From positions 28,950,001 to 29,014,000 of the forward strand of contig NC_080568.1 of the NCBI RefSeq assembly GCF_030253575.1: a stretch of 64,000 nt of DNA, written 5' to 3'. The notes under the pieces are model-generated. The model was not told the origin of the DNA, did no database searches, and saw only the letters and a list, made by a program, of their open reading frames with translations. This document shows, one piece after another, positions 4,601 through 63,660 of the stretch. The stretch is from Rhododendron vialii (Eukaryota; Streptophyta; Magnoliopsida; Ericales; Ericaceae). Position 1 is the stretch's first letter; each line of letters begins with the position of its first letter. Made by a program: the position numbers and the translations under genes.

Positions 4601-5080
4601 ATTTTGTTTTTACTGGAGGGAAACAACATATTTTCAGGTTCTTAACTACATATATACATCAAAACTCAGAAATATTAGAAGTGAGAACTGCTACAGGTAC
4701 ATGGAAATAGGGCCCAAGCCGTAGGGCTCGCTTTCTTGGCGTTTCCACACAAATTTAACAAGCGCAGAAACCCGCCAAGCATTAGGCCATTTTGGCATAC
4801 AGTGCGACATTTTTATCTGCTTAAAGTTTCCCTTTCCTGAAAAAAGATTCTCCCAAATAGGGGTAGAGTAAATTCTACATCCAAAACAACTTCTACCAAA
4901 GCAGAACACAACAGAAAAGATTTTACCCGCAGCTGGTAAAATTATGGGGACCTAGTTAAAGAATGAAACTGTTCGAAAGACAAAAAAGAAGGGGAAACAA
5001 CCTAAGCACGTACAACCGAGTTCTGGAATCTCCAATCTAACCCCCCAAGTTACCAGCAAAATTTCTCAAAAATGAGGACT
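1672..5080. other. Intergenic; 3' flank of the translocator gene
   Basis: No gene recognised. The stretch has T-rich tracts (2100-2290), a short direct duplication around 2710-2850 (gtgattttaga), and poly-T at about 3234-3247. The last few hundred bases before 5081 should contain the 3' UTR of the minus-strand translocator, but no polyadenylation site can be fixed by eye. Confidence 0.4.
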
Positions 5081-8000
5081 TCAAGCTGACTTTGGCTTTG
5101 GCTTAATGCGCTTCACCCTTGAATACAGGAATACTCCAGCCAGGGCCACACCAGTGCCTGCAGCAAAAAGCAGGAAAATTGCAAGAATTTAGAGAAGAGA
5201 CCTGCTAGTAGTATATGTAAAGTTATGAGAAAACCATTTTTTCCAGATCTAACAGAAAACTGTAGTTTGTTATAAACATTACCACAGCTTGTGGGAGTTC
5301 AAGAGGAAGTAATCATTACCGAGAGAGTTGATAGATGAAACAGGCGTCCGGAAGAAGAGAACAGAGGTGACAATAACCACCACCCGCTTAACGCAATTTC
5401 CAACAGAGTGGGTAACTGGGGATACCCTCTGCAATATCATATATGAAACCTGCATGACAAGCTCAGATCAGCCTCTCTATGAAAAAAACAACTATTACAA
5501 ATAGATAATTTTAGTAGAGGGGTAAGTTGAAGTTAAAGAACATTATAAGCATGTTCTTAGAAACTTTACATCGTGAAAATACTGGAAAGTTCTATAAGCC
5601 ATGTGGATAACTTGAGCTTTCATGGCATAAACTCTACTATGTCAGTGGCTATGAGCTTACTAGTTAAGGCATGCATCAACGTGGAGCATTGAGTGTTAAG
5701 ACACTGAATTTGAAACAACCTGATAAGTTCATAACAATACGTTTGGGGGAAAATAAACGAATTGAAACCTGAAAAGCTAAGAAGAAAAATATATAAAGCT
5801 GGAAGACTTCAGAATGGATGATGCTGAGCAAGTTTGTGTTTGGAACTACCTGTTACATTTAGTAGGTAATGCACAGAATCTCCAAAACTGATCATTACAC
5901 ACTACTTCAGTAATCACGCCATCTATGCTTCAATCGCAAAAAGAAAATATGACCTCTAACTTGTACCAATAAGGAACCAACGACATACAAGTCATGGTTA
6001 ATTTACATACTACAATCGGAATCACCAGAATTGCAATTAAAACAGAGTTTGATCTGCCAATTACACACATTGTTTTAAGGTCACAACAATGGCTCAACAG
6101 AGAACTATGGCGTTAGAACAACAGAAAAACCGAACTTACACAATAAGCATTGTAAGGGCCACAGAGGACACGGTCATCATCAATTTGACCGGAACGAGAT
6201 AAAAAAGTCATTACTTTTGGGTGGATCCATTTGTCATCTTGTTATTAAGGTAGATCATATGATTCTACGCAAAGCATTCTGTCACCCATGAAAAAAAGAA
6301 TCCCTCGCCGAATCTTTCTCTAACTGTTACTTTCCTTCCATACCGAGCTGAACTCACCACCGGCTTGTTGAAGAGGGAAATATGATCAAATATCCTCCTA
6401 AATGCAGGCGTGATCTTACATATGATAGCACCAGACACACTCTTGCCTTTTTTGGAGTCAAAACTCTTCTCTCCAGTGGAAGTACATCAACAAGCAAAAT
6501 ACGGTGAAGATCACCCAATAATGTCATATCTATTTTCAAAAGCATATGTAACACAGTAACAGTGATTATTGACAGCACTTGACAATCCTCTATTCAGAGT
6601 GTCTTAACCCTACTACGCAGTTCTTTTCATTCCCCCTTTTCCGGTTGTCTGATACTTTTCATTAACAACCGATAATATGATGGTTTTATAACATCGTAGG
6701 ATGGGTCTCACAGTTCAATTCAAGTTACAGACAATGCAATATTTGTCACCTTTAATTTGGACCATAACGCATCCGGAACTTGAAAAAGAGAACATTAGGA
6801 AAACATATTTTTTTTAACTAAGCACAAAGAATAAATAAAATACCAATATTGAAATAAATTTCTTACCTGCTGATATGCATGGAAGCAGAGTGCAGCAAGG
6901 AGAGACCTGGTGTAAACCTGTCTGACATCCAGTCCCTGACAAGCAAAACCAAAAAAATCAGGACATTACATATGACAAAGATGTACGTTATGTGGACAAA
7001 TAAATAACTGAATAGAATCTATTGTTAACATTTCAAATTTACTCACAGCTGCTTGCAGGTATAAAGGTGTGATCTTGACTCCTTCCATGAAGAAAGTAAC
7101 AGGAGCCAGCAAGAATAAGGACATAATCGTTATAATTGAGAAGAGAGTGATGTTGTCCAAAGATTCCTGTACAAACACATACTAATCACTTACTTGAGAA
7201 GAAAAACCAAAAAACACACAAAATCTTCTTCTTCAATAAAGAAAAAGAATTACCTTGAGAAAAAGAAATTTAAAAAGGCAAAAACAAATCAAAGACGAGT
7301 TATCTATTGCTCACTACATTTTGCAAGTACTTAACATCTAAAAGAAATTAACTGTTCCACTGCATGCACTCTGTGCTACAAATTCTCTAGCACTTGACAA
7401 CAATCAATAAAAGAACAAACTATACCTACAAAATAGGTAATCGCAAACAATTACATTGAAGTAAAAAAAGCACTTTGTTCTAAAATTATTGTCGAAATGA
7501 AACCATGAGTGAATACCTCTTTCTTAACCATAAACTTTTTGCTAAGGACGTTACGTGATTGGTTGGTCAAATTAGAAGCCATTGCACTCCAAAACCCAGC
7601 CCTGTTTCACTTACAAGAAATAATAATCAGAATCTAGGATAACAGTTCAACTACTAATAATCAAAGTGATTCTTATATAATCTAAAACTCGACACAGGTA
7701 AGAAGGTACCTATAGGCAGAGGAACATTTCCTCTCTATTTAAAACTTTGTTCGGTTCCATCCAGTATTAGGCAACAAAAAGGTGGGTAGTGATTTACAGC
7801 AAATACAGGTGTAGTTACTCACCAATTGAAAGAAGCCTCGGTCATTGACGCCAGTCCCACTCCACCAACAATTGGTATCAGAGAAGCAACCACCCAGGGA
7901 GTGGGTATCTGTTTGGGCAGGCAAAGAAGGAAATGGTTAGACTTAGACCAACTCGTCGGTAATGCATATTTGCCAGTAAGCCTAGTACCAAAGGTACATG

Positions 8001-35477: not shown

Positions 35478-37340
35478 TTCCCTCTATGTGATTGGAGAAT
35501 GTAGAACGCTCATATGGGACACATGGGGTTGATTTTCATGTTTGGAACCGGCTCTAAGGGAGGATGAGGAAGCGCCCGCTTCGGGCCCGTACCCAAGCTC
35601 AAATAAGAGCCCCATATTTTGGTGGGGCATGTATTGAGCGTAATTATTTTATTAGAGCCCAACAAAGCAAAGGGCCCAATCTTTATTAGTATGTATTGCT
35701 TTTCAATTTTTAGACATAAACGAAAAGACAAACTTGTTCCCCATTCCATACAGGTGGAAGAGCATGCTCATTCTTTTCACATTTTATGTGGGATAGGAGC
35801 AAATTCGGGTTCATGATTTGAAGATACTTGAATAAAGATTAAGAAGATATATAGTGATCTAAATACTGAAATTTCGCTCTGGGCCCCAACAAATTAGAGT
35901 TCGCCATGTTTGTGTTATTGCTCTATCGGTTAGTTTTGGGAATAGATTCCGGGAAGATTCATTGTAATATATACCAACATCCAAAACGCTCAAAATGTTA
36001 AAAAGAAGCTCCCAAACACGGTGTAACAATTCTACTAGAATATTAGCAATAGTGAGATATGTGCCTTGAACAGCCTTACTAGAATTTCGATAGGAGTAAA
36101 AGGGAAAGTCTTAATACTTTCATACTTGCAACCAATCTTATGGAGTAACATATTTAGGTGCATGTCAGTCTCACATAAGTTCATTTTTTCTCATGACTCA
36201 AGTGCTCGGGCCAACTTACGCATGTCTCGACTAATTCTTGAGACCTATCCACAACAAGAAGACAAGGATAATCAACTAAAATTCTTCTCTCTCTATCCAC
36301 GACATCAAGACAAGGATAACAGGTTTTACCAAGGCCATGATAAGAGTCCATGAAAACCATCCATGAAAGAATCACAGATTTCACTTCCATTCATGGATAG
36401 AGTTCATGGGCACTATCAAACCCCTTCTACCAAACAAGTAATATAAGACCACAAGTCAAAATACCAGAACTTCTATGTTGAAATAAACTAGTCAATTTAG
36501 GTGAAGCTTTGTCTTCTTCGGCGGATTTGTTTGTTTGAGAGACTTGTTCACAGTGGGACAAAAGTTCTGGAATTGATTCGAGGGAGGAAGCAAATAGGAT
36601 AGAGACGGGAATAGACTTTCCCAGAGGAAAAAAAAAGAGCACCCTCCTGAATCACAATCCACAGTTCCAGAAATACGCATTAATTAATTAGAGGGGAAAC
36701 CCGAAGAGAGCTTGAGGGCCATTGCAAATGAGAATAGCTAGCAAGGAAAGCGCATAGATGATCCACGAGATGACCCTAAGGCATAGGGGAAAAGTTATGG
36801 TAACAGCGAAGAAGAAAGCCGTAACCCCAAAGAATACTCCAAGATTGTCGAGTACGCGGGCTGCATAGGGTTGCTTCGGGGCTATGTATTTAGCCACGAA
36901 GATAGAGGCAAATGCAAGCACAACCATTAGGCAGAGGGAGTGGAAGTATAGGGGGTGAACGGTGTGTTTTTGGAGTGATTGGGCGGCGATCTCAATTGCG
37001 CCTGTCAAGCAGAAGGCTACGACTAGTGTCGGAAAATCGAGGTTGTTCTGCTGCTGAGCATTTGGTAGCGGTAACGGTGGTTCAATTGGTACTAGTACCA
37101 AGTCAGGGGGCTGGTTTGGGGGCTCAAGCAGCAGAGTATTTGGTAGCGGTAATGGTTGTTGAATTGGTAGTGCCAAGTCAGGAGGCTGGTTTTGGGGCTC
37201 GATGGGGGAATTTGGAGGAGTTGGAGTCGGAGGCGGAGGTTGTCCCTGAAAGAACTGTGCCAAGGTTTTTCTCAATGGGCGCATGGTTTTCATTCCAAAC
37301 ACCGAGAAGGCTAGAAGAATATATTGGCAAAATTTACGAA
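35478..37340. repeat. Segmental duplication block, copy B
   Basis: Collinear with copies A and C from the tgattggagaa string through gtattgagcgtaattatt (35631) to the four-helix gene, but shorter. About 0.5 kb present in A and C is missing after 35870, and the stretch before the gene (36270-36440) is different. Confidence 0.85.
36688..37293 (-). CDS. Four-helix Pro/Gln-rich membrane protein, copy B
   Basis: Intact 201-aa frame from MKTMRPLRKTLAQF (37293) to a stop at 36688, no introns. The N-terminal half is disordered, with two proline modules (NQPPDLALPIQQPLPLPN and NQPPDLVLVPIEPPLPLPN) and a short QQQ. Then come NNLDFP and four hydrophobic segments: VVAFCLTGAIEIAAQSL, LCLMVVLAFASIFVAKYI, FGVTAFFFAVTITFPLCL and VISWIIYALSLLAILIC. 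The linker KQPYAARVLDNLG joins helices 2 and 3. The likely topology is a small four-pass membrane protein with the Pro-rich tail on one side. I do not recognise the family; it is not the PGG domain of ankyrin proteins. The start is chosen because METM/MKTM aligns in all copies, about 75 bp below a TATA box. Confidence 0.7.
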   Translation of the reverse strand: MKTMRPLRKTLAQFFQGQPPPPTPTPPNSPIEPQNQPPDLALPIQQPLPLPNTLLLEPPNQPPDLVLVPIEPPLPLPNAQQQNNLDFPTLVVAFCLTGAIEIAAQSLQKHTVHPLYFHSLCLMVVLAFASIFVAKYIAPKQPYAARVLDNLGVFFGVTAFFFAVTITFPLCLRVISWIIYALSLLAILICNGPQALFGFPL

Positions 37341-37949: not shown

Positions 37950-39454
37950 AGGAATATTATAAGAGTATTATAGGAGACTAGGGAGTGTTTGTCTAGAGTC
38001 ATTGTTAGTTACTCCCAAAACAAAAAGCATACTCCCTAAAACATAAGAATTATTCAGTAGTGGGCCAACATGTCGCAAAAGAGACTCGGGATTACAAAAA
38101 AAACAAGTGTGCAATTACGACCCATATAACACAAATTATTATCCTTTCTATCAAAACCATCCGCCACGTACAACTGCTTTTTAATCCATTCTCTTTTTTT
38201 TTTTTGAACATGAACCTCAATGTTCATTAATGTTGTATTTGGATGAATTTTTGAGAATTTTTTTGAAATTATAAATAGAGAGAATAATGATTGAAAATAG
38301 AAGCAATAAGTAAAGATAGATAGAGAGAAAAATAAGAATAATAATTAGAGATAAAAATAATGAGTAAAATATAATAATTAAAAATAAAAATAATGAATAT
38401 TTTTTGAGTTGAATAATTTTCTTAAAAAAGAAACGAACAAGGATTCTGAAACCGTTTACGAGTAGACTAGGGAGTGTTTGTCATAGGAGACTAGGGAGTG
38501 TTTTGTCCAGAGTCATAATGATTGCGAGTTTCTCCAAAGCAAAAAGTATACTCCCTAAAACATAAAAAGGAAACCAACAAGGATTCTGAAACCATTTACT
38601 ATGAGTATTATACGAGTACTAGTATTTATCCGTGCCTACGGTATTACGTTATTACGTACTTCGGTAATACCGTAGGCCCGGCATTTTTGTAATATATATA
38701 TATATTTTATTCCAAAGTCAGAAGTCGAGCAGTAGGTAAAAAGAATCGATGACATTTTTGTAATATATTTGTAAGAGTGTGAGTGTTTTCTTAAGAGAGT
38801 TAGAGAGTACACATCAACCTTTGGATCAAATGAATCTCAGTACTTTTTTTAACTTACGTTTGTATGGTCTCCGCACCATTTTATTTTATTAGGTAAATTA
38901 TAGGAGACTATGGAGTCTTTGTCCAGAGTCCTAATGATTGCGAGTTACTCCAAAGCAAAAGGCATACTCCCTAAAACATAAAAAGGAAACCAACAAGGAT
39001 TCTGAAACCGTTTACTAGGAGTATTATAAGAGTATTAGTGCTTATCCGCGTTTTACAGCATTACGCATTGCGTATTTCGGTAGTGCTGTAGGCACGGGCA
39101 TTTCTGTAATATATATTTTTTTCTTTCAACGTCAGAAGCCGAGCAGTAAGTAAAAAGAACTGATGACATTTTTGTAATATATTTCTAAGAGTGTAGGTGT
39201 TTTCTTAAAAAAGTTGAAAACTATACATCAGTCCTTGGATCAAATGAATCTCAACTATTCTTTCAACTTGTATTTGTGTAGTATCCACGCCCTTATATTT
39301 TATTAGATAGATTGTAGGATACTATGGAGTGTTTGCCCAGAGTCATAATGATTGTGAGTTACTCCAAAACATAAAGCATACTTCCTACTAAAACATAAAA
39401 AGGAAACCAACAAGGATTTTGAAACCGTTTCCTAAGAATATTATAGGAGACTAA
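37950..39454. repeat. Tandem array with ~410-bp units
   Basis: Units start at about 38497, 38902 and 39316 with taggagactagggagtgttt-type sequence, then gtccagagtcataatgattg, actccaaagcaaaaag, actccctaaaacataaaaagg and gaaaccgtttac. Partial units lie at 37955-38050 and 38440-38496. Each full unit holds a hairpin around cggtattacg...cgtaataccg / gcattacgca...gtgctgtaggc followed by GCACGGGCATT-like sequence, reminiscent of a Helitron 3' end. The array continues after the Mutator-like element at 49114-49225. Confidence 0.8.
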
Positions 39455-39697: not shown

Positions 39698-39715
39698 TAA
39701 GGAGTGTTTGTCCAG

Positions 39716-39995
39716 CAGTAGTGATACTCTGACCGAAGGATTTTCCCGCACCCTTACCGCAAGTGTGGTCCCCACCTTAAAAAAAAAAGGAAAAAAGAAA
39801 AATGGCCAAACGGGCAAAACCAAAACAAAACGCCTTCCCTCACCCAAAATTCACATCACGTTCTGTTCGAGAAGAGAGAGAGGACAGCCACCATCACCAC
39901 CGCCGCCGCCAACTACCACCAACGCTGAGTCCCATCACCACCTCCAACCACGTCAGCAGCTCCACCTCCGGCACTCTCACCGCCAAAGGTCTCTC
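39716..39995 (+). repeat. Left terminal inverted repeat of the MULE
   Basis: Pairs with 48785-49113. Shared blocks include gatactctgaccgaaggatt, gcaagtgtggtccccacctt, gaggacagcc, catcaccaccgcc and tctcaccgccaaaggt. The right arm contains an extra duplicated stretch (cggcaaaacc-aaaacaaaa twice), so the arms differ in length. Confidence 0.85.
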
Positions 39996-40222
39996 TCTCT
40001 CTCTCCCAAAAATTAGGGTTTCAAAATTGGGGAAATTTTGGATTTTTGTGGTCAATTTGATTGGGTAAATTAGGGTTTCAAGTTGAATATGGACTATGAT
40101 TCTCCATCTGTATCTAGAGCTATCCAACCTGTGACTTGTCTGGCTCAACAGTCTCAGTGTTATTTTAATCCTCGATCTTGATATTTCTTTGTTAGATGAG
40201 ACAAATTATTGACATGTTACAG

Positions 40223-40328
40223 GAGCTTAATTTGGAGGGATTTGTGACACAAGAAATCAGCTTCCAAGATATCAACAAAGCTTTTGAGTTACTTCTCCAG
40301 GGGATGCATCATATGGATGGATAAATAG
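40223..40328 (+). pseudogene. Alcohol dehydrogenase-like last exon fragment inside the MULE
   Basis: After an acceptor (ttgacatgttacag, ending 40222) the frame reads ELNLEGFVTQEISFQDINKA then FELLLQG, and after a small deletion CIIWMDK and stop (40305-40328, shifted frame). This matches the C-terminus of plant zinc-dependent alcohol dehydrogenase-like proteins, where an intron precedes the same exon. The deletion near 40303 removes a few residues and shifts the frame. Upstream, the left TIR could act as promoter and 5' leader. I infer a host exon captured by the MULE (transduplication). Confidence 0.65.
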
Positions 40329-40459
40329 AAGGATTGTTGCTTGTACTAACTTCTATTTCTACTTCTGTTTTTGTGTCAACTATGCCATTGTATTGCAAAC
40401 TAAATTCAAGCATGTCCCTGCAAAAAAATTTTGATCAGAGCACATCCCAGAACATTTGC

Positions 40460-43280
40460 CACTACTAGAATAATGGATAAAGAACACACTAAGAAAGTTA
40501 GAAAGATCACAGTTTTGATGAAAACGTGATAAAGAAATGTGAGGTGAATTTTTAATGTCACTTTGCTAATAAAACCGTGGTAATTAACATTTATTATAAC
40601 AGTTTTAATAGAACCGTGATTATAAGTGCTTAATTTAACCACATTTTCCTGCAAGTGTGATAAAAATGTGTCTATTTAATCACGCTTCGTTACAACCATG
40701 ATAGAAATGTGTCTATATTAACCACACTTTCCTACAAGCGTGATAACATGAGTCTATTTTAACCACGTTTTGTTACTACCGTGATAAAATCTATCTTTCT
40801 TGTTTGATTTAACCACATTTTTTTTAAAACGTGATTAAATGTGTTTACTTATTTTAATCACGTTTATCTAAAAGTGTGATAAAATTTTCTTTTATTTATT
40901 TTAACCATGTTTTATTAACAACCGTGATAAATTATTTAGGTGAGGAGAGGACCTACAAGATTTCCAAAACACTCCTAAAAAAATTAAAAAGTTTGGCGCG
41001 CATTTTGCCGCCAATTCACCCAATCCTATAGGCTATAACCCCGGCCTCGTTTGAGCAACTAAAGGAAAACCCAACTGTTTCAGCGCTTTCTCCTCTCCTT
41101 CTCCATCCCGGTGAGGTCGGCGCCCTCTTTCTCTTCACTGTCGCGTCTTGTCATCTTCGTTAACCTTCGTATCCTGCAGCATGTTTCATCGCTTGCTTCC
41201 TGTTGCAACATCCGCGATCACCACCACCCTTTCGATGAGAAGGGGATCCCTCGCCCACAACCATCTGTTGAGGTGATTTTGATTAGAAGAATCATCCTCT
41301 GGGGTTAGTGTTTCGCCCAGATTCGATTTCTCTTTTCGAACTTTCCCTCCTTGCTCTTGTTCTTGTTTTGTACTTTCAACCTACGGTGAGTGTTTTGGGA
41401 CTTTGTCTCGGTTATCTAATCAATGACGGGCTATTTAGTTTAGTGCTGATTTCCAGGAAAGATATTCGAATGTTGATGGCGCTTCCTCCATTCGCACCGA
41501 AGTCGTGCTTATTTTTCACGGTAAGCATGCTCTTGGTCTTTTGGATTGTGATTATGTGGATATTGACAGATTGTTATGTGTTTTTTACAATCACGGATGA
41601 TTCTGCACATTAGGTGTTCGATAAAAGTACCAAACGAGTTTTGGTATTAATTAGTATAAGAATTGCAATCTATAGGAGTCTTAAGTCCCACACCGGCACT
41701 TGGTAGTTCCAATTTTGTTGTTTCTACTTTCTCTTCCCAGTTTTTATGTGCTATATTTCACAAGTTAAATTAAAGCTTCAATTGTTGTTTCTTGAAAAAA
41801 CAAAAAGGAAGTAAAAATGGCCTCTTATCCATAGAGTGATCGTGAGTGGCAATGGCAATGGCACTGGAATCCCCCCTATTGCATCGACGAAAGGTGCAAT
41901 TAAGTTCTTCGAAATTGGCTTTGTTAACAAACTCAACTTATATTATGTTTGTTATAGAGCTATTCATGTTAATCTCTATTTGCATATTTATAATGCGACA
42001 CATGGCTGACAACTAACCAGATAACCGACCTTATGGCGCTACTTTATTTAAGTGTTATTTAGTAATATTTTAGATTCGTTAATTTATCCTGTGATGTTTT
42101 TCAGCACCCAATATGCTTAGGGTGTCTGTGTAAAAAGCAAGATGGTGAAACTAAAGAAAAACTTACGTGGCTCTGTTTCAGTCTCCCAAAACTCAACTTT
42201 AGTGCGGCTATTTGAATTGAAGTTGAATTATGTTTTTTTTTACGGTGGGAGGATTGTAATATATATTGCTTGTGACCTGCATAATGATATGTTGCAGGTG
42301 GTAGAAGAGATGGGTTGGTCACAACTTTGCAACTACAAGGCTAGAGGTCATTGTATGTATGTATGTATCTTGTTCTATGCTATATGTGACATAATTTATC
42401 CTTTTTTTGGGTAAATTATTGATGTGTTTGTAATTTTCCTGCTTGCAGACGACTGCCAATATTCAGATTTGGTATGGAGACTATGGACTATAGTATGAGT
42501 CTTGAGGAAAACTCATTTGTCGTTGTTGCAAATGGTAGACGAACTTGAGAGGCTAGTTAGCTTATTTGTCATTCGTTTTTGCTTGAACATTGATCTAGCT
42601 AGGCTTTATTTTTTTGGCTCAATACCCGGACCATGTAACATGTTTGATTCTCTTATTTGTGTGTAAAACGCTTTCAGATTAATATATTATAAGTTCACAT
42701 ATTGGCTTTTTCAATTAGTAAATGTATTTGCCATACCATTGCAGTATGATGCACTTGTACAGTTAGCAATGGGGAACAAATTTTAGGTTCAGAGCTGGAA
42801 AGTATCTAATTTAAGAAAATAAACAAGTTCACCACAGTTTCTCAATAAAGCGAGATATTTAAGTCCATTAACAACCACGGGATCTGGAAAAACTGGAATG
42901 TTATAGATAATAAGATCACGGTTTTAGTAGAAACTGTGCTTATTTGATTGAAAATGATCACAGTAAAGAAGATATGATCACGGTTTGAGTAAAAACTATG
43001 ATTCTTTTATATATTAAAACTATCACAGTTTGACTAAAAACTGTGATTAATTCATTTAAAATGATCACGTTTTTTTTTATAATACTGAGATTTTTAATTG
43101 GAAACAATCACGTTTCTTACCTATGAAGCACAATTTTTAATTAGCTTGTATCACTGTTTATAACCATGATTAAAAGTAGGACTTTTAATAACGGCCCGAT
43201 AGACCACGGTTTTGTAACCGTGATAAAAATCAAAAGATTACGGGTAATAAGTGTGATCATTAAGCATTATTGTAGTAGTG
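40460..43280. mobile_element. Non-autonomous CACTA (En/Spm) element, 2.8 kb
   Basis: Ends CACTACTAGAATAATG and CATTATTGTAGTAGTG (15 of 16 inverted), with the 3-bp target duplication TGC (40457-40459 and 43281-43283). Subterminal regions at about 40490-40940 and 42860-43265 consist of many degenerate 12-14-bp units such as accacggtttt / aaaccgtgatta in both orientations, typical of CACTA ends. No TNPA/TNPD-like gene is evident. The 41.0-42.8 kb interior has GC-richer, exon-like stretches (41090-41620) that may be captured host sequence. Confidence 0.88.
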
Positions 43281-43283
43281 TGC

Positions 43284-43962
43284 TAAATTCTATCATGAGA
43301 AGCTAAAATTCTATTTTGTAGGTGCCATGATGATGTTCAGTTGCTAGCATATGGGACTTCAAAATGGGTGAATAACTAACTTGAAAATGGTTCCCTTGGA
43401 ATGAGGATTTCAATCGGGTGAGATTTGGGCATGGCAATCCAGTGCAGTTTTTACGACTCCGACCCATAGAGAGCCCTTGGAGATTCTTAAATTCGAAGTC
43501 TTCCTCAATTAATTTGTACCAGCGGAATTGAGCCCTTTTGTGGAGCTGTAACGGCTTCTTTTTTGGTTGAAATGCATTGGTTTTGTATTGTGTGGCCTCT
43601 TTATGTTTCATATTCTGGGTTAGGACTGGTATAAGGAGTCTTGAGTCTATTGTAGCCTCCCTTTGTGGGAGTGAGTTGGTTTCTTTTGTTGCTTTGTTTC
43701 ATGTTTGCTGGGGTATGCCCCTTTGCTTACTGTAATTGGTTGTGGAATTGGAATAATGAAATGTTAGTGGCTACAATTGTAAGACTCATGTTGATTACTT
43801 TAATAATGAAACATGTTTGCATTTTTCTGAGAAATTGAATCTGTCAGTTGAGATATTGGAATGGCATAGTTTGTATTTTTGCTATTGTTTGATGAATGGA
43901 ATGGAATAGAATGCAAAGTTGCTTGTGGACTAGATTTCACAAGTAATTCGTATTTGTGTCGT
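43284..43962. other. MULE interior between nested insertions
   Basis: No gene recognised. The T-rich and G-rich sequence resembles a 3' UTR. It was contiguous with 40456 before the CACTA insertion. Confidence 0.35.
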
Positions 43963-43970
43963 GTGCTAAT

Positions 43971-44799
43971 CAGTGTTATGGATCCCGTACCGTCCCGTCC
44001 CGGATTTGTGAAATTCCGGTAAGTTGACCGTCTGATACCGTTCCGGTGCCAATACCGGCGATTACTGGTCTGTACCGGAAAATTCGGCAAATCTCGGCCG
44101 AGATGTCGTTACCGAAAATTTCGGCCGGTATTTTGCAAAGTTGGGCCGTTTGTAATTTCATCAGATTCCGGCGAGTTCCGGCCTTAACTGGCGAGTCCCG
44201 GCGTTACATGCCAAAGAGAAAATAGGAGAAATAAAAGAAAAACAGAAAGAAGGGGAAGAAGACACGAAGTTATGGAGAACAGAGGGAAGACGAAAAGTAT
44301 TTCTGGAATCGATTTCTGTTCAGATCTAGTCTTTTAGAGACATTCCGATGAACTTCTCTGTCTTCTTCATGCCTCTTCACCCTTTAGTCGGTTCCTGCCA
44401 AAGTTTTTGGTTTTGTGGTGCAGTGACGGAGTGGGTAAAGTAATACTTACAGCTGTATAGCAGGAGCAGGAGGTAGCTGTATAGCAGGAGCAGGAGGTGT
44501 GCAGCTGCACATCAACGTAAAATTCAATGCTAGAGTGTTTTTCTTTTCTTTTCTTTTTTTGGATTTGTAAGGAAAATAATGAATTTAAGTTAATTACGTA
44601 GATTTTGTTGTCTTAATACATGTATTTTATGATGAATTGCATGGTATGAAAAAAAAATTTGAATTATAATTATGTATAATTATGATATATATTATAGTTG
44701 CGGTAAATCCGAAACGGTACCCGGTACCTGACCGGTACCGGTACGTACCATACCAGTAAGAAAATCGGTACCCTGTCCGAAACGATATTCAGAACTTTG
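43971..44799. mobile_element. hAT-like non-autonomous element
   Basis: Begins CAGTGTTATGGATCC and ends GATATTCAGAACTTTG; only the outer bases are inverted matches. Flanked by the 8-bp direct repeat GTGCTAAT (43963-43970 and 44800-44807). The interior has many ccggtacc / gtaccgg-like strings near both ends (43983-44110 and 44706-44775), an unusual GC-rich subterminal repeat. It also has a 24-bp tandem duplication (agctgtatagcaggagcagg, 44452-44497). Confidence 0.65.
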
Positions 44800-45426
44800 G
44801 TGCTAATGAATTTTTGGCAAGAAATAACTATTTATTTTTCATGTCCCAAGCAAGTTATCCATTTGGCTGGCAGATAGCTCTTCTCTTCCATAAAAATTGA
44901 TTTGTCATGTTATGCATTAGGCATGTTCCAGACTTCATTCATTCTTTTATTTTCATCGGTGCAATAACGGATTAAGGTTAGATCGGAATACAAAGAACCA
45001 AATACCCATCTGTGCATGATTGATGAAGAGCTTGATATACCCATTGGCCAACAACACCAGAAAGTTTGAAATGAATAGCAGGCTAGTAACCATTTTGGCA
45101 AAAAATAGCTATTCAAACCAATATACACCATAATTTCAACAAAAGAAGGCCATTACAAACCATATACTTGATCAAGAAAAAACCTTTATAGCATATCCAC
45201 AAAAAACACTTCATCATCCCTGTCTCCAATAACAAAAAGGTGCCAGGTTGGCTTTCCACTCATTTCTTCAACTTCCTGCACGAAAAAAAACAACAAAACC
45301 AAACAAAATTTAAATGGCTTCACTCCTTTCTTCAACTTATGAGATGGTAAGCATGGACAAACAATTGCACTCAAGAATGAAAAAGAAACTAAAAAAAGGA
45401 GATGAGCAACATAATCTCAGGATCAT

Positions 45427-47907
45427 TCAGACTACCAACAGGAGACGATCATCACCTTGTTTTCTATTGTTCACATTATCTCTTCCATTCAACAAATCCA
45501 AAAAACTTTGTTGTCCTCCTCCCCAACCCTGCTCTTGACTTTCAAAAAAGTTTGATTGTCCTCTCCAAACTTGAGTTCCCGTAATTGATTGTCCTCTCCA
45601 AACTTGACTATTGAATAAACTTGGCATGTTGCTTTGTGAAGTTGGGAAGTTGCCCAAAAATTGGTTGAAACCTGTTCCACTTGTTCCAGTTGGGCATAAA
45701 GTTGGAGAAAATGGGAGGATGCTTCCGGCTTGTGTCATATTTGGTTGCAAATTCTGGGGCATCATGTTTGGCCACATAAATTGCCCCATGTAGCCTGGGA
45801 TACTCTGCCAAAAATTAAATATAACATGAAACATAATACATTGATTATAGAAGGAACGAACTTAGCAATTAAAAAAAGTTTCTTACATTTACATTTACAA
45901 CACTTTCTTGTGTCCCAAATTCATTGCTTACTGCATTCTCCTGGACCTTATGAAATTAGTAAAACAATATAGCTAATAAGCATTTATCCAAGATATGCAT
46001 ATGTCCATATTAACAAGTAAGCAAGGGCAAGTTAAAAAATAAACTTATACCTTCGCTTTTTCGTTAGACAATGTCTTATTTTTTTGTTCTCTTTTCTTCT
46101 TACAAATTTTTTCAACACCACCTTGCTTTCTTTTTGATGGAGGTCTCCCTTTTCGACGAACAGATTTCGGGTCTAGGATGGTCATGTTCTCTTTGGAAGG
46201 TAGAACTATATCTTCAAATGAAAAGGAATCATTTGGAGTATCAGAAACCATATTACTTTCACAAACAATCGAAGATTCAAGCAGCTCTCCTTTTAGCTCC
46301 TGTAGCCGTCCCATGACCTTTTCATACTTCTCTTGAGAATCTTCCGCCAAATTGGCAACCTCGTTAAAGAGATTGCACATGTTGTCATGCCGACATGCTT
46401 CAATTGTCGAGGACGAGTTATCGTAGTTGATTCGAACTTTAGTGTGAGCCCTTTTCAGATTTTTGCTCCATCTTCTCAAGACATACTTCTCAGGTATTCT
46501 TTGAACTCTCCTTTCATGGAACACCATAAGTTGATGTCGACACACCATTCCTCTAAACTCAAATAATCGACAATTACAATTTGCTTCATTGGTCTCACCA
46601 TTAAACTCAACCTTAAATGACACATGTTTTGTCCTTTCCTCTTCCCCTTCTCCAAATTTGATGTCTTCTTCTATCTCATATTCTGACCAAACATCACCTA
46701 CTTTTCTTTCATACAAAGAACAATTAAGTTTTCCCACAATTTCGTCTTTAAACTCTTTAAACTTTGCACGCGTATAAGCACTTTGGAATTGTTTCTCCAA
46801 CTGAGCTGCAGTTATGCACGGGATGTAAGAGTGCAAATCTTTCATATCTTCATAGTTTTCATTTTCCACATTTTTAGCCAATGCATTCTCATATTGCTCT
46901 ACAAATTGTTTCAAAGTCGTCTTCGAGTTGATGTAACCATCAAAATATGAATTCATACTCTCACTTCTTTGTGTGGATGACATTCCCGCCCAAAACACAT
47001 CCTTCACAAAAGCCGGCACCCATCGATTCCTCTCTAAATACAACCCATGTAACCATTCATTATTTTGAAGTGCGTACTTTTTGATGAACATGTCCCAAGC
47101 AACCTCAAATTTCTCTATTGTCAGTGAATCATAAACTACATTGTGCAAAGAAGGTGAAATTGATTTACGCTCCTCGCAGTTTCCCAATTTTTCTGGCACC
47201 TTTTTCAAAATATGCCATATGCACCACCGGTGTCGAGTGTGAGGGAATACTTCTTCTATAGCATTCTTCATGGCCATACATTGATCGGTAATAGTTGCTT
47301 TGGGAGTACAACCCCACATGCATGTCATCCAAGTCCTAAATAACCAGGAGAATGACTTTGTGTCTACATGAGAGATGAGTCCACATCCCAATAATATCGA
47401 CTGACCATGATGATTAACACCTACAAATGGAGCAAAAGGCATGTCATACTTATTTACCAAGTATGTTGTGTCAAACGTCACAACATCCCCAAACTCTTTA
47501 CAAGCTGCTCTACTCATTGCATCAGCCTAGAATACATTTACTAGTCGAGCCTCATCATCCAAATCCATGGCAAAAAAGAAATCAGAATTGTCAGCTTTCA
47601 TCTTCATGAAATAGTTATGCATCGCCTCAGCATCTCCTTCAACAAGTAATTGACGTCGCTTTTTATCCAAAAAATTTCTGCAATCTCTAGGAAGAAATGG
47701 AAGGTTCTGAGGCCCCCCGCTTGAATTTGAAGTGAGTCATAAGTCTTGTACGACCTAATCCTGGCTTTATCATTCAATAGGAGCTTTCTTTTCACATGTT
47801 CATCAAGCACCCTATAGCATTTGTGAAACCTGGTCTTTCCCGGGCTATTATCATGATTGTGTACCAAGGCAGCCCGATTTAACCTCCACTTTCCATCCGG
47901 GTCTCTA

Positions 47908-47939
<32 letters not shown>

Positions 47940-48302
47940 TGTTTGTGGCCGTGGTTTGACCGGATTGGTTGCTGTGATCACCGCCTTTCCACCACGATTG
48001 CACATAAAAGTTACATGTCTCAAGTTTCCATCTTTCCCCTTTCTCGAGTTTCTTTTTGCCACAGCAAACCCCTTTTCTTTAGCATATCTTAAATAATATA
48101 GATAAGCTTCATTTGGTGTGTTGAATATCATTCCCTCCTTCGGTTTAACTATATGTTCAGAAATCTCTATTGCCTCATTTTCATCCTCATTAGTACCTAT
48201 ATCATCACAATCTTGTTTTGAAGAACCATTCGATACCTCTTCTTCTTCTTCAATGTCTCCACTTGATGAGATCAAATATGATGGTGATGGCAACGGAATC
48301 AC
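45427..48302 (-). pseudogene. FAR1/FHY3-type MULE transposase, frameshifted
   Basis: Main exon 48302-46051, then 45946-45887 and 45804-45427, joined by phase-0 GT-AG introns. Order: acidic N-terminus; FAR1 zinc-binding domain (NEAYLYYLRYAKEKGFAV ... IECPARL ... VHNHD); MULE transposase core with FGDVVTFDTTYLVNKYDMPF, ATITDQCMAM and HRWCIWHILKKVPEKLG, keeping Asp residues of the presumed catalytic triad; SWIM zinc finger CNCRLFEFRGMVCRH; a Lys-rich stretch; and an Asn/Gln/Met-rich tail. Two defects: the frame shifts at a six-base run (47713-47718), and a TAG (47529-47527) stands where Trp is expected. The first exon has no ATG near its 5' edge and follows TAG|GTGATTCC, so an upstream exon near the right TIR is likely. 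It lies inside a MULE, which favours transposase over domesticated FRS gene. Confidence 0.85.
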
Positions 48303-48784
48303 CTACATGTTCAAAAATTAAACGAAGAAGTAAGCATTTTCACAAGCTAAGACAATTCTATTTCTATCTATTCTTAAAAAAGAAACAAAAAAAATTCTAA
48401 ACAGAGACCAATAAAAATAAAAGCTTTTCCTTTCACATGAGCAACAGCCCAGACTATTTCATCCAAACCCCTTGGCCTTCTCAGTGTGTACATTTAGCCA
48501 TATGGACCTACTAACACTAGTTGCTTGTCAGTGTGTACACAAAGTAGGATTTATGCTTAAAACCTATAACTAATGCTGTTTATTGTCTCGTAAAATTTTA
48601 ATCTTGCACCATGATACATTTCTCATGCTTTATCTTTTAAAATTTGAGCATTCCCTAAATTAAAAAAAAAAAATTACATTACTACAGGATGAACATTCAA
48701 CACTGCCAATGTTTATTTACGTTTCTTAGTTTGTGAAAGCCCACTTCCACTCAGAGAGAGAGAGAGGGAGGGAGGGAGAGGAGG

Positions 48785-49113
48785 AGGGACCTTTGGCGGT
48801 GAGAGCTCGTCACGATTTGACCTAAATTTTGGCGATTCTCGTGAGATGGAGGTGGTCACCGGAGGTGGAGACGCAGACATGGTGGTCGGCGGTGGTGATG
48901 GGGCTGTCCTCTCTCGCGAACTCGAACAGGGATGCAATGTGGATTTTGGGGGGAAGGATTTTTGTTTTGGTTTTGCCGATTTTTGATTTTGGAGGGAAGG
49001 GCTTTTGTTTTAGTTTTGCCGTTTGGCTTTTATCTTTTTTCCTTTTTTTTAAGGTGGGGACCACACTTGCGATAAGAATGCGGGAAAATCCTTCGGTCAG
49101 AGTATCATTACTG
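48785..49113 (-). repeat. Right terminal inverted repeat of the MULE
   Basis: Inverted partner of 39716-39995. Read on the minus strand it leads toward the transposase gene, so it probably supplies its promoter and 5' leader (pyrimidine-rich, 48756-48790). Confidence 0.85.
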
Positions 49114-49225
49114 TTTGTCCAGAGTCATAATCATTGCGAGTTACTCCAATAAAAAAACATACTCCCTAAAACATAAAAAGGAAACCAACGAGGATTTTGA
49201 AACCGTTTCCTAGGAGTATATAAAA
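49114..49225. repeat. Array unit continued right of the MULE
   Basis: TTTGTCCAG then agtcataatcattgcgagtt, actccctaaaacataaaaagg and gaaaccgtttcctaggagt continue the unit interrupted at 39715. Confidence 0.85.
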
Positions 49226-62842: not shown

Positions 62843-63373
62843 TTAGAGGGGGAAGAGAGCTGGAGGGGGATTGCAGATGAGAATAGCTAGCAAGGAAAGC
62901 ACATAGATGATCCACGAGATGATCCTGAGGCAAAGGGGAAAAGATATGGTAACAGCGAAGAAGAAAGCCGTAACCCCGAAGAATCCTCCAAGATTGTTGA
63001 GCACGCGGGCTGCATTGGGTTGCTTTGGGGCTATGTATTTAGCTATGAAGATAGAGGCAAATGCAAGCACAACCATTAGGCAGAACGAGTGGAAGTATAG
63101 GGGGTGAGCGGTGTGTTTTTGGAGTGATTGGACGGCGATCTCAGTTGCGCCCGTCAAGCAGAAGGCTACGACTAGTGTGGGAAAATCGAGGTTGTTCTGT
63201 TGCTGTTGCTGTTGCTGCTGAGCATTTGGTAGTGGTAATGGTTGTTGAATTGGTCGTGCCAAGTCAGGGGGCTGGTTTGGGGGCTCGGTGGAAGAATTTG
63301 CACGAGTCGGAGGCTGTCTCTGACTCTGAAAGAACTGCGCCAATGTTTTTCTCAATTGGGGCATGGTTTCCAT
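62843..63373 (-). CDS. Four-helix Pro/Gln-rich membrane protein, copy C
   Basis: Intact 176-aa frame from METMPQLRKTLAQFFQSQRQ (63373) to a stop at 62843, without introns. It has one proline module (NQPPDLARPIQQPLPLPN), then a pure run of eight Gln (52-59) coded by alternating CAG/CAA, NNLDFP, and four hydrophobic segments at about 66-84, 92-112, 128-149 and 150-167. The charged linker AKYIAPKQPN lies between helices 2 and 3. The frame is open for another 49 codons upstream, but METM aligns with the other copies and follows the shared TATA and leader. Helices are nearly identical to copies A and B, which suggests constraint or very recent duplication. Function unknown. Confidence 0.7.
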   Translation of the reverse strand: METMPQLRKTLAQFFQSQRQPPTRANSSTEPPNQPPDLARPIQQPLPLPNAQQQQQQQQNNLDFPTLVVAFCLTGATEIAVQSLQKHTAHPLYFHSFCLMVVLAFASIFIAKYIAPKQPNAARVLNNLGGFFGVTAFFFAVTISFPLCLRIISWIIYVLSLLAILICNPPPALFPL

Positions 63374-63438
63374 TCCAAACAAGCGAGAAGGGATGTATTG
63401 GTGAAATTTATGACGAAAAAGTCTCTTATTCCATGGGG

Positions 63439-63463
63439 TATATATAGGATGGGGTATATATAG
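63439..63463 (-). promoter_or_regulatory. Two TATA boxes of copy C
   Basis: A short duplication of ggggtatatatagg gives two TATATATA motifs (63439-63446 and 63455-63462), 66-90 bp upstream of METM. Copies A and B have one. Confidence 0.6.
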
Positions 63464-63477
63464 GGTAGTTTCATCGT

Positions 63478-63660
63478 GTACGTTTTCAGTTATGGAAGTG
63501 AAATTCCAAATGTACCCCACCCCAAAAGTGTATGCTTCCAGTTATGCAAGTGAAATTCTGAATGTGTGCTTTCAGATATGCAAGTGAAATTCCGAATTTA
63601 CCCCCCTAAAAAGTGTATGCTTTCAATTATGCAAGTGAAATTCCGAATTTACCCCATATC
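63478..63660. repeat. Minisatellite upstream of copy C
   Basis: About four units of tttcagttatgcaagtgaaa then ttccgaatttacccc, some with aaaagtgtatgc between them; unit length 40-60 bp. It begins 15 bp upstream of the TATA pair and is unrelated in sequence to the array upstream of copy A. Confidence 0.8.

Follow-up and report, generated by a model that had tools for sequence, protein, structure and literature searches.

A dead FAR1-type Mutator-like element with a captured alcohol dehydrogenase-like exon in the genome of Rhododendron vialii

A 64,000-nucleotide stretch of the Rhododendron vialii genome (contig C12, positions 28950001-29014000; hereafter the window) contains a transposon of 9398 bp that spans positions 39716-49113 and is bounded on both sides by perfect 9-bp duplications of its target, TTTGTCCAG. 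A transposase with FAR1, MULE (DDE), and SWIM domains, similar to the light-signaling protein FAR1, lies on its minus strand. We are nearly certain that this is a dead Mutator-like element (MULE) of the terminal inverted repeat (TIR) type and of the FAR1-domain, Jittery-like kind, with the history that we propose below. The features that define its boundaries and its transposase are as follows.

38483-39453: tandem array of 2.3 copies of a 414-bp unit, in which versions of the target site stand unoccupied
39707-39715: left target-site duplication, TTTGTCCAG
39716-40003, plus strand: left terminal inverted repeat (86-nt core; when indels are allowed, the likeness extends to about 290 nt)
45427-45834, minus strand: exon that probably encodes the C terminus of the transposase, YMGQFMWPNMMP..., joined by predicted splicing
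46045-47721, minus strand: MULE (DDE) and SWIM part of the transposase, with one internal TAG at about 47528
47691-48302, minus strand: FAR1 DNA-binding domain of the transposase, in a frame that differs from that of the MULE part
48776-49113, minus strand: right terminal inverted repeat
48791-48880, minus strand: putative first exon of the transposase, MSASPPPV...LSPPK, then a predicted GT splice donor
49114-49122: right target-site duplication, TTTGTCCAG

The original prediction, made from the letters of the window, had described both ends, a perfect 9-bp duplication, long inverted ends, and a transposase relic, and all of these were confirmed to the base. The core inverted repeat pairs 39716-39801 with 49028-49113 over 86 nt at 88% complementarity, and additional inverted blocks reach as far as 39974-40003 and 48776-48805. 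Across the terminal 62 columns, a length picked after the ends had been inspected, the two ends match at 58; 500 dinucleotide shuffles averaged 18 matches and never exceeded 30. The duplicated 9-mer by itself is not significant within the window (24 matches with at most one mismatch versus 22 expected), and it carries weight because it is present at both element ends. The target unit, moreover, survives uninterrupted next door, as had been claimed. When up to 3 mismatches are allowed, the window holds 4 occurrences of the 27-base stretch that begins at 49114, and the expectation from 100 shuffles is 0. Three of these occurrences are uninterrupted neighbors in the array, at 38502, 38918, and 39332, with 1, 2, and 3 mismatches, respectively; the 9-mer is perfect in two of the three neighbor units and carries a single mismatch in the unit at 39332. 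The window thus supplies its own empty-site test, in which neighboring units show the site uninterrupted. A 9-bp duplication (within the 8- to 11-bp range), long terminal inverted repeats, and a MULE/Transposase_mut DDE transposase are together what marks a TIR-type MULE, and the element has all three.

The same ends recur as paired termini elsewhere in the genome (532.6 Mb, 13 contigs). When the left 301 bases served as the query, 21 matches were obtained at E values up to 0.001; eight of these are the paired ends of four elements, namely, the window copy and copies on contigs C1, C3, and C2, and the others are either second pieces of these elements or matches to an inner part only. Among the places matching the inner part only, we inspected the ends at C4 and C9, where two sister elements lie. 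The target duplication is perfect in four of the six elements (window, C3, C4, and C9) and agrees at 8/9 positions in C2; C1 has none, so that recurrence with a duplication holds for the C3 and C2 copies and fails for C1. The C3 copy, with its perfect 9-bp duplication ATTGTTGTG, holds an insert of 11.65 kb whose terminal direct repeats are 95.6% identical over 863 columns and which, by its look, is a long terminal repeat (LTR) retrotransposon. The C2 copy is a derivative of 1.1 kb in which nothing matches the transposase part. The C1 copy (L011, 451-7691) retains a transposase frame that is broken several times. It also contains a 1440-bp insertion that starts with TGTAACGCCCC, ends with TTACA, lies between TTTCG repeats, and resembles a solo LTR.

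In the window copy, Pfam recognizes MULE (1.8e-33), Transposase_mut (4.8e-6), and SWIM (6.6e-5) in 46045-47517 and FAR1 (3.1e-16) in 47604-48302. The FAR1 domain accordingly precedes the DDE core and the SWIM domain follows it, with the FAR1 part in a different frame. Alignment of the window copy to the open 781-residue frame of the C9 element requires two frames and crosses a single TAG; the lesions of the window copy are a frameshift (between 47691 and 47721) and this stop. The window copy is a relic and not autonomous, its transposase not being intact. The stretch 45427-45834 is also open in the C1, C4, and C9 copies, and the database protein P0244 has a similar end. The 490-residue open frame of 46045-47517 contains D16, D78, and E186, with spacings of 62 and 108, which we take to be the DDE triad from the IS256/Mutator spacing. 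The predicted fold (mean predicted local distance difference test score [pLDDT], 71) gave 814 matches, counted at E values up to 10, and the top five are all the ISCth4 transposase (E values of 1.4e-6 to 1.4e-4), which belongs to IS256, the bacterial cousins of Mutator. Among solved structures, no sequence relative was found at an E value of 0.01.

The same anatomy could be read as a host FAR1-related (FRS) gene lying by chance between two inverted repeats. Databases do name the C1 and C9 frames as FRS5-like and FAR1-like proteins, and the domains are those of the R. vialii FHY3 protein (P0236). The catalytic residues are of no help here: P0236 keeps D, D, and E, and because it keeps all three, the triad cannot separate an element from a host gene. 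Of the 120 listed matches to FHY3, 96 have D at the second acidic position and 88 have E at the third; of the 120 listed matches to the C1 transposase, 112 and 113 do, respectively. Against a host gene, however, stand inverted ends placed exactly inside a perfect 9-bp duplication, neighbor units that are unoccupied, and a unit that recurs with new duplications, perfect on C3 and near-perfect on C2; on these three grounds we reject it. The window frame is broken, the transposase is 31 to 33% identical to nine aligned rows of the FHY3 set, and a fully supported branch (100/100) separates the two. A host FRS gene would have an intact frame that groups with FHY3, and the window locus has neither, carrying terminal repeats and a duplication instead. 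A search of the genome with P0001, the database protein of the C1 frame, gave at least 100 matches (98 of 922 candidates scored), and some of the distant ones could be host genes; among the 30 best, 17 contain stops and 13 have none in the aligned stretch, with lower-ranked matches probably including true host genes. A host gene between chance repeats is thus scarcely credible, and a transposon is what we take the locus to be.

The two sister elements lie at C4:18826836-18833726 (L053/L052) and C9:6065594-6072483 (L055/L054). They are 99.3 to 99.7% identical to each other across 6.9 kb, with sharp ends starting GGATAATGC, and each sits between a perfect 9-bp duplication of its own (TTGAAATCT and ATTCAAGAT). 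Their own inverted repeats (about 555 columns, 75 to 76%) are related to, and different from, the ends of the window element, and their core and P0001 share 86% identity. Both frames run to 781 codons without stops and differ from one another at three residues; the C9 frame contains FAR1, MULE, and SWIM. Full FAR1-type genes between 9-bp duplications therefore exist elsewhere in the genome, as the original prediction expected, at C4 and C9 and with related but different ends. The near-identical pair appears to represent a sister family that has moved recently, and it is a candidate for a dicot FAR1-type MULE with recent activity.

Open frames of this kind could instead belong to a domesticated copy, that is, a once-mobile element whose transposase the host now keeps. 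The ratio of nonsynonymous to synonymous substitution rates (dN/dS) between the window and C1 copies, at 0.51 (NG86) or 0.72 (YN00) over 401 codons, lies below 1 and would agree with such retention, as would the open C4 and C9 frames. Modest constraint is, however, also expected from the time before insertion; the window frame contains a stop and a frameshift and the C1 frame is broken several times; and the near-identical C4 and C9 copies stand at unrelated sites, each within its own duplication, as recent transposition would leave them. We hold domestication to be very improbable. Loss of the DDE residues, considered as a mark of domestication, was rejected on the grounds that R. vialii FHY3 retains them.

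Several observations weigh against our reading of the locus. Neither the window nor the C1 transposase is intact, and the C3 copy has lost its transposase core. The C1 copy lacks a matching duplication (TTTTAGAAA versus TAAATTGAA) and is therefore rearranged or not a simple insertion. The repeat unit occupied in the window is a partial one, because the resemblance of the joined flanks to the array units reaches about 15 bases leftward and about 115 rightward from the site and stops there. Finally, the likeness to the Jittery group that we discuss below rests on published descriptions and on domain order.

The warning that the transposase might be mistaken for a host FAR1-related gene was borne out, because the database entry P0001, "FAR1-RELATED SEQUENCE 5-like [Rhododendron vialii]," is the C1 frame (100% across all 430 residues) and P0245, "FAR-RED IMPAIRED RESPONSE 1-like," includes the C9 frame letter for letter. 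Two R. vialii FRS/FAR1 database entries are thus transposases inside complete elements, and in genomes like this one, counts of FRS genes that rely on annotation may be too high. Rhododendron was unmentioned in the FAR1 and Mutator-like transposase literature that we found in a limited search, which does not settle whether the family or its misnaming has been published earlier.

Beside its left end, the window element carries a piece of a host alcohol dehydrogenase (ADH)-like gene, and two further elements are nested within it.

40160-40459, plus strand: first part of the captured host segment, with the intron end, last exon, and 3' region of an ADH-like gene
40223-40321, plus strand: captured ADH-like exon, ELNLEGFVTQEISFQDINKAFELLLQG..., within the first part of the segment
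43284-43749, plus strand: second part of the captured segment, common to the C8 copy and not to the C6 gene
40460-43280: nested CACTA-type element with ends CACTACTAGAATAATG and CACTACTACAATAATG; 3-bp duplication TGC at 40457-40459 and 43281-43283
43971-44799: nested hAT-like insertion; 8-bp duplication GTGCTAAT at 43963-43970 and 44800-44807

With the 33-residue exon as query, phmmer against the PDB gave seven matches at E values up to 1, all of them alcohol dehydrogenases, the best at 0.0078, a weak score for a query of only 33 residues. A genome search with 40060-40456 found six places, comprising three copies of the element (window, C1, and C3), one place on C8, and two on C6, with identities of 86% (C8), 85% (C6 at 11.55 Mb), and 78% (C6 at 1.20 Mb, part of the exon). 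The match at C6:11.55 Mb is to the end of a multi-exon ADH-like gene; ADH-like stretches lie there in several open frames, and the last exon, read by eye, is ELNLEGFVTHEISFQDINKAFDLLLQGKSIRCIIWMDK. About 770 bases of the element (40160-40459 and 43284-43749) also occur at the C8 place, with 82 to 86% identity. Since the C6 ADH-like gene and the C8 copy carry the matching segment, the piece was captured from the host; at 82 to 86% identity, the C6 gene and the C8 copy are candidates for the direct donor. About nine bases near the exon end, present in the C6 and C8 copies, are missing from the element, which alters the last residues. The segment is present in the window, C1, and C3 copies, and nothing in the leftmost 2.2 kb of the C4 element matches it. 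The C8 copy itself (C8:6864000-6870500, L019, positions 4990-5761) has a damaged ADH exon and is longer than the C6 gene match; the left terminal repeat has no match in the 6.5 kb examined there.

The left terminal repeat contains an exon-1-like stretch that ends in ALSPPK at 39988 and is followed by a predicted GT splice donor at 39989, mirroring the LSPPK and GT of the transposase side. The ADH exon is preceded by AG and stands in phase 0 to this left-end donor. The left exon-1-like frame is open from its ATG in C1 and is interrupted by a stop in the window.

The CACTA-type and hAT-like sites are both empty in the C1 and C3 copies; the hAT-like superfamily is a guess from how long the duplication is and from the appearance of the ends alone. 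Without the nested insertions, the element would measure about 5.7 kb (9398 - 2821 - 3 - 829 - 8). The original description of a whole 9.4-kb element therefore had its boundaries exactly right, with a length that includes two later insertions, and it overlooked the captured host exon.

From this anatomy and from known MULE behavior, we propose the following history. Bound at the long terminal repeats, a FAR1-MULE-SWIM transposase placed the element in one unit of the 414-bp repeat; its cuts in the target were staggered by 9 bp, and repair of the stagger produced the two copies of TTTGTCCAG. The ADH-like last exon and 3' region were captured beside the left end by an ancestor, before the three long copies separated. 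The CACTA and hAT-like elements later entered the window copy, whose transposase was broken by a frameshift and a stop. The related C4 and C9 copies separated recently and retain open transposase frames.

We placed the transposase among its relatives with two trees, drawing on homologue lists of the best 120 of 2632, the best 120 of 1081, and the best 120 of 2807 (the last with 7990 candidates scored). The first tree holds 54 proteins picked of 240 together with the window and C1 rows and is midpoint rooted for drawing only. In it, 15 rows of the FHY3 set lie beyond a 100/100 branch of 1.39 changes per column; the tool warned of one long row, P0098, that meets this branch. The window, C1, and P0001 rows group at 100/99 within a 14-row, mainly Rhododendron and Actinidia set that includes one Orobanche row and one further row. 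Because so long and fully supported a branch separates the two clades, the lineage alone says little about the origin of the FHY3 family, and the bearing on that origin asserted by the original prediction was overstated: FAR1-type MULEs with ends are already in print, and the FHY3 clade is far away. We reject that relevance as it was stated.

The second tree (50 picked proteins and two added rows) recovers a 23-row set at 100/100 with a stem of 0.37, of which 20 rows are from Rhododendron and Actinidia, the rest being P0006, P0248, and one further row. The fork that places Curcuma longa P0248 inside has 99/99 support; those that place Orobanche gracilis P0006 inside have 93/83 and 90/68, under the tool's support mark. 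Castanea falls among Camellia rows, so that mixing of hosts is not limited to Orobanche and Curcuma. The Orobanche and Curcuma relatives possibly reflect horizontal transfer, or old lineages lost elsewhere. PMC9168764 cites a MULE that passed horizontally between Setaria and rice, and PMC4958966 describes the transfer of hAT elements into broomrapes. Another O. gracilis FAR1-type protein, P0293, pairs with Trifolium pratense P0268 at 100/100 on a branch of 0.45, a possible case of transfer from host to parasite.

A bolder reading, to which we give little credence, would join these strands: the exon-1-like stretch and same-phase donor at both ends would form an exon trap that makes fusion proteins, and the lineage would have crossed between distant plants. 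Were it true, one end would feed the transposase and the other the captured exon, here the last ADH exon in frame. The captured exon and the Orobanche and Curcuma relatives offer two testable leads, one on exon trapping and one on horizontal transfer.

Outside the element, the minus-strand open frames at 36688-37302 and 62843-63520 in the window encode 204 and 225 residues, respectively, and the two are identical at 99 of their last 114 residues (DFPTLVVAFCLTGA...). Their similarity indicates a duplicated gene family that flanks the element on both sides.

Several known systems resemble the window element. In Table 1 of PMC6446971, the Jittery group (group 36) is described with an N-terminal FAR1 domain, a C-terminal SWIM or CCHC domain, and TIRs of 39 to 292 bp or none. 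The window element shares with its sub-group of dicots and monocots the FAR1-first and SWIM-last order, a single transposase gene, and terminal repeats; it differs in its captured ADH-like exon and in its 9-bp duplication, which the table gives as 8 bp or does not indicate for the sub-group. A passage of PMC3903597 places Jittery and FAR1 in one clade. In grapevine, according to passages of PMC2528002, Jittery-like MULEs occur, some with captured ULP genes, alongside single-copy FAR1/FHY3-like cousins. Those elements are like ours in having 9-nt duplications where found, captured gene pieces, and FAR1/FHY3-type single-copy cousins, whereas the captures there are ULP1-like and here an ADH-like last exon.

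The FHY3/FAR1 factors (R. vialii P0236 and Arabidopsis P0121) carry FAR1, MULE, and SWIM in the same order but lie on the other side of the 1.39-long branch. Pack-MULEs hold a host gene fragment between MULE ends. The window element is like them in having such a fragment inside its ends, with related copies elsewhere in the genome (C6 and C8), but it additionally encodes its own transposase. Pack-MULEs are mentioned in passages of PMC2528002 and PMC1947982. In the main text of PMC8599713, a FAR1 paper (NAR, 2021), a word search found none of the words TIR, TSD, and Jittery. Because the passages of PMC6446971, PMC3903597, and PMC2528002 cited above already describe them, FAR1-type MULEs with ends, and gene capture by such MULEs, are known, and the window element is ordinary in its class. 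What we add is the captured ADH exon with its mirrored donor, the recent C4/C9 pair, the misnaming of transposases in databases, and a lead on horizontal transfer.

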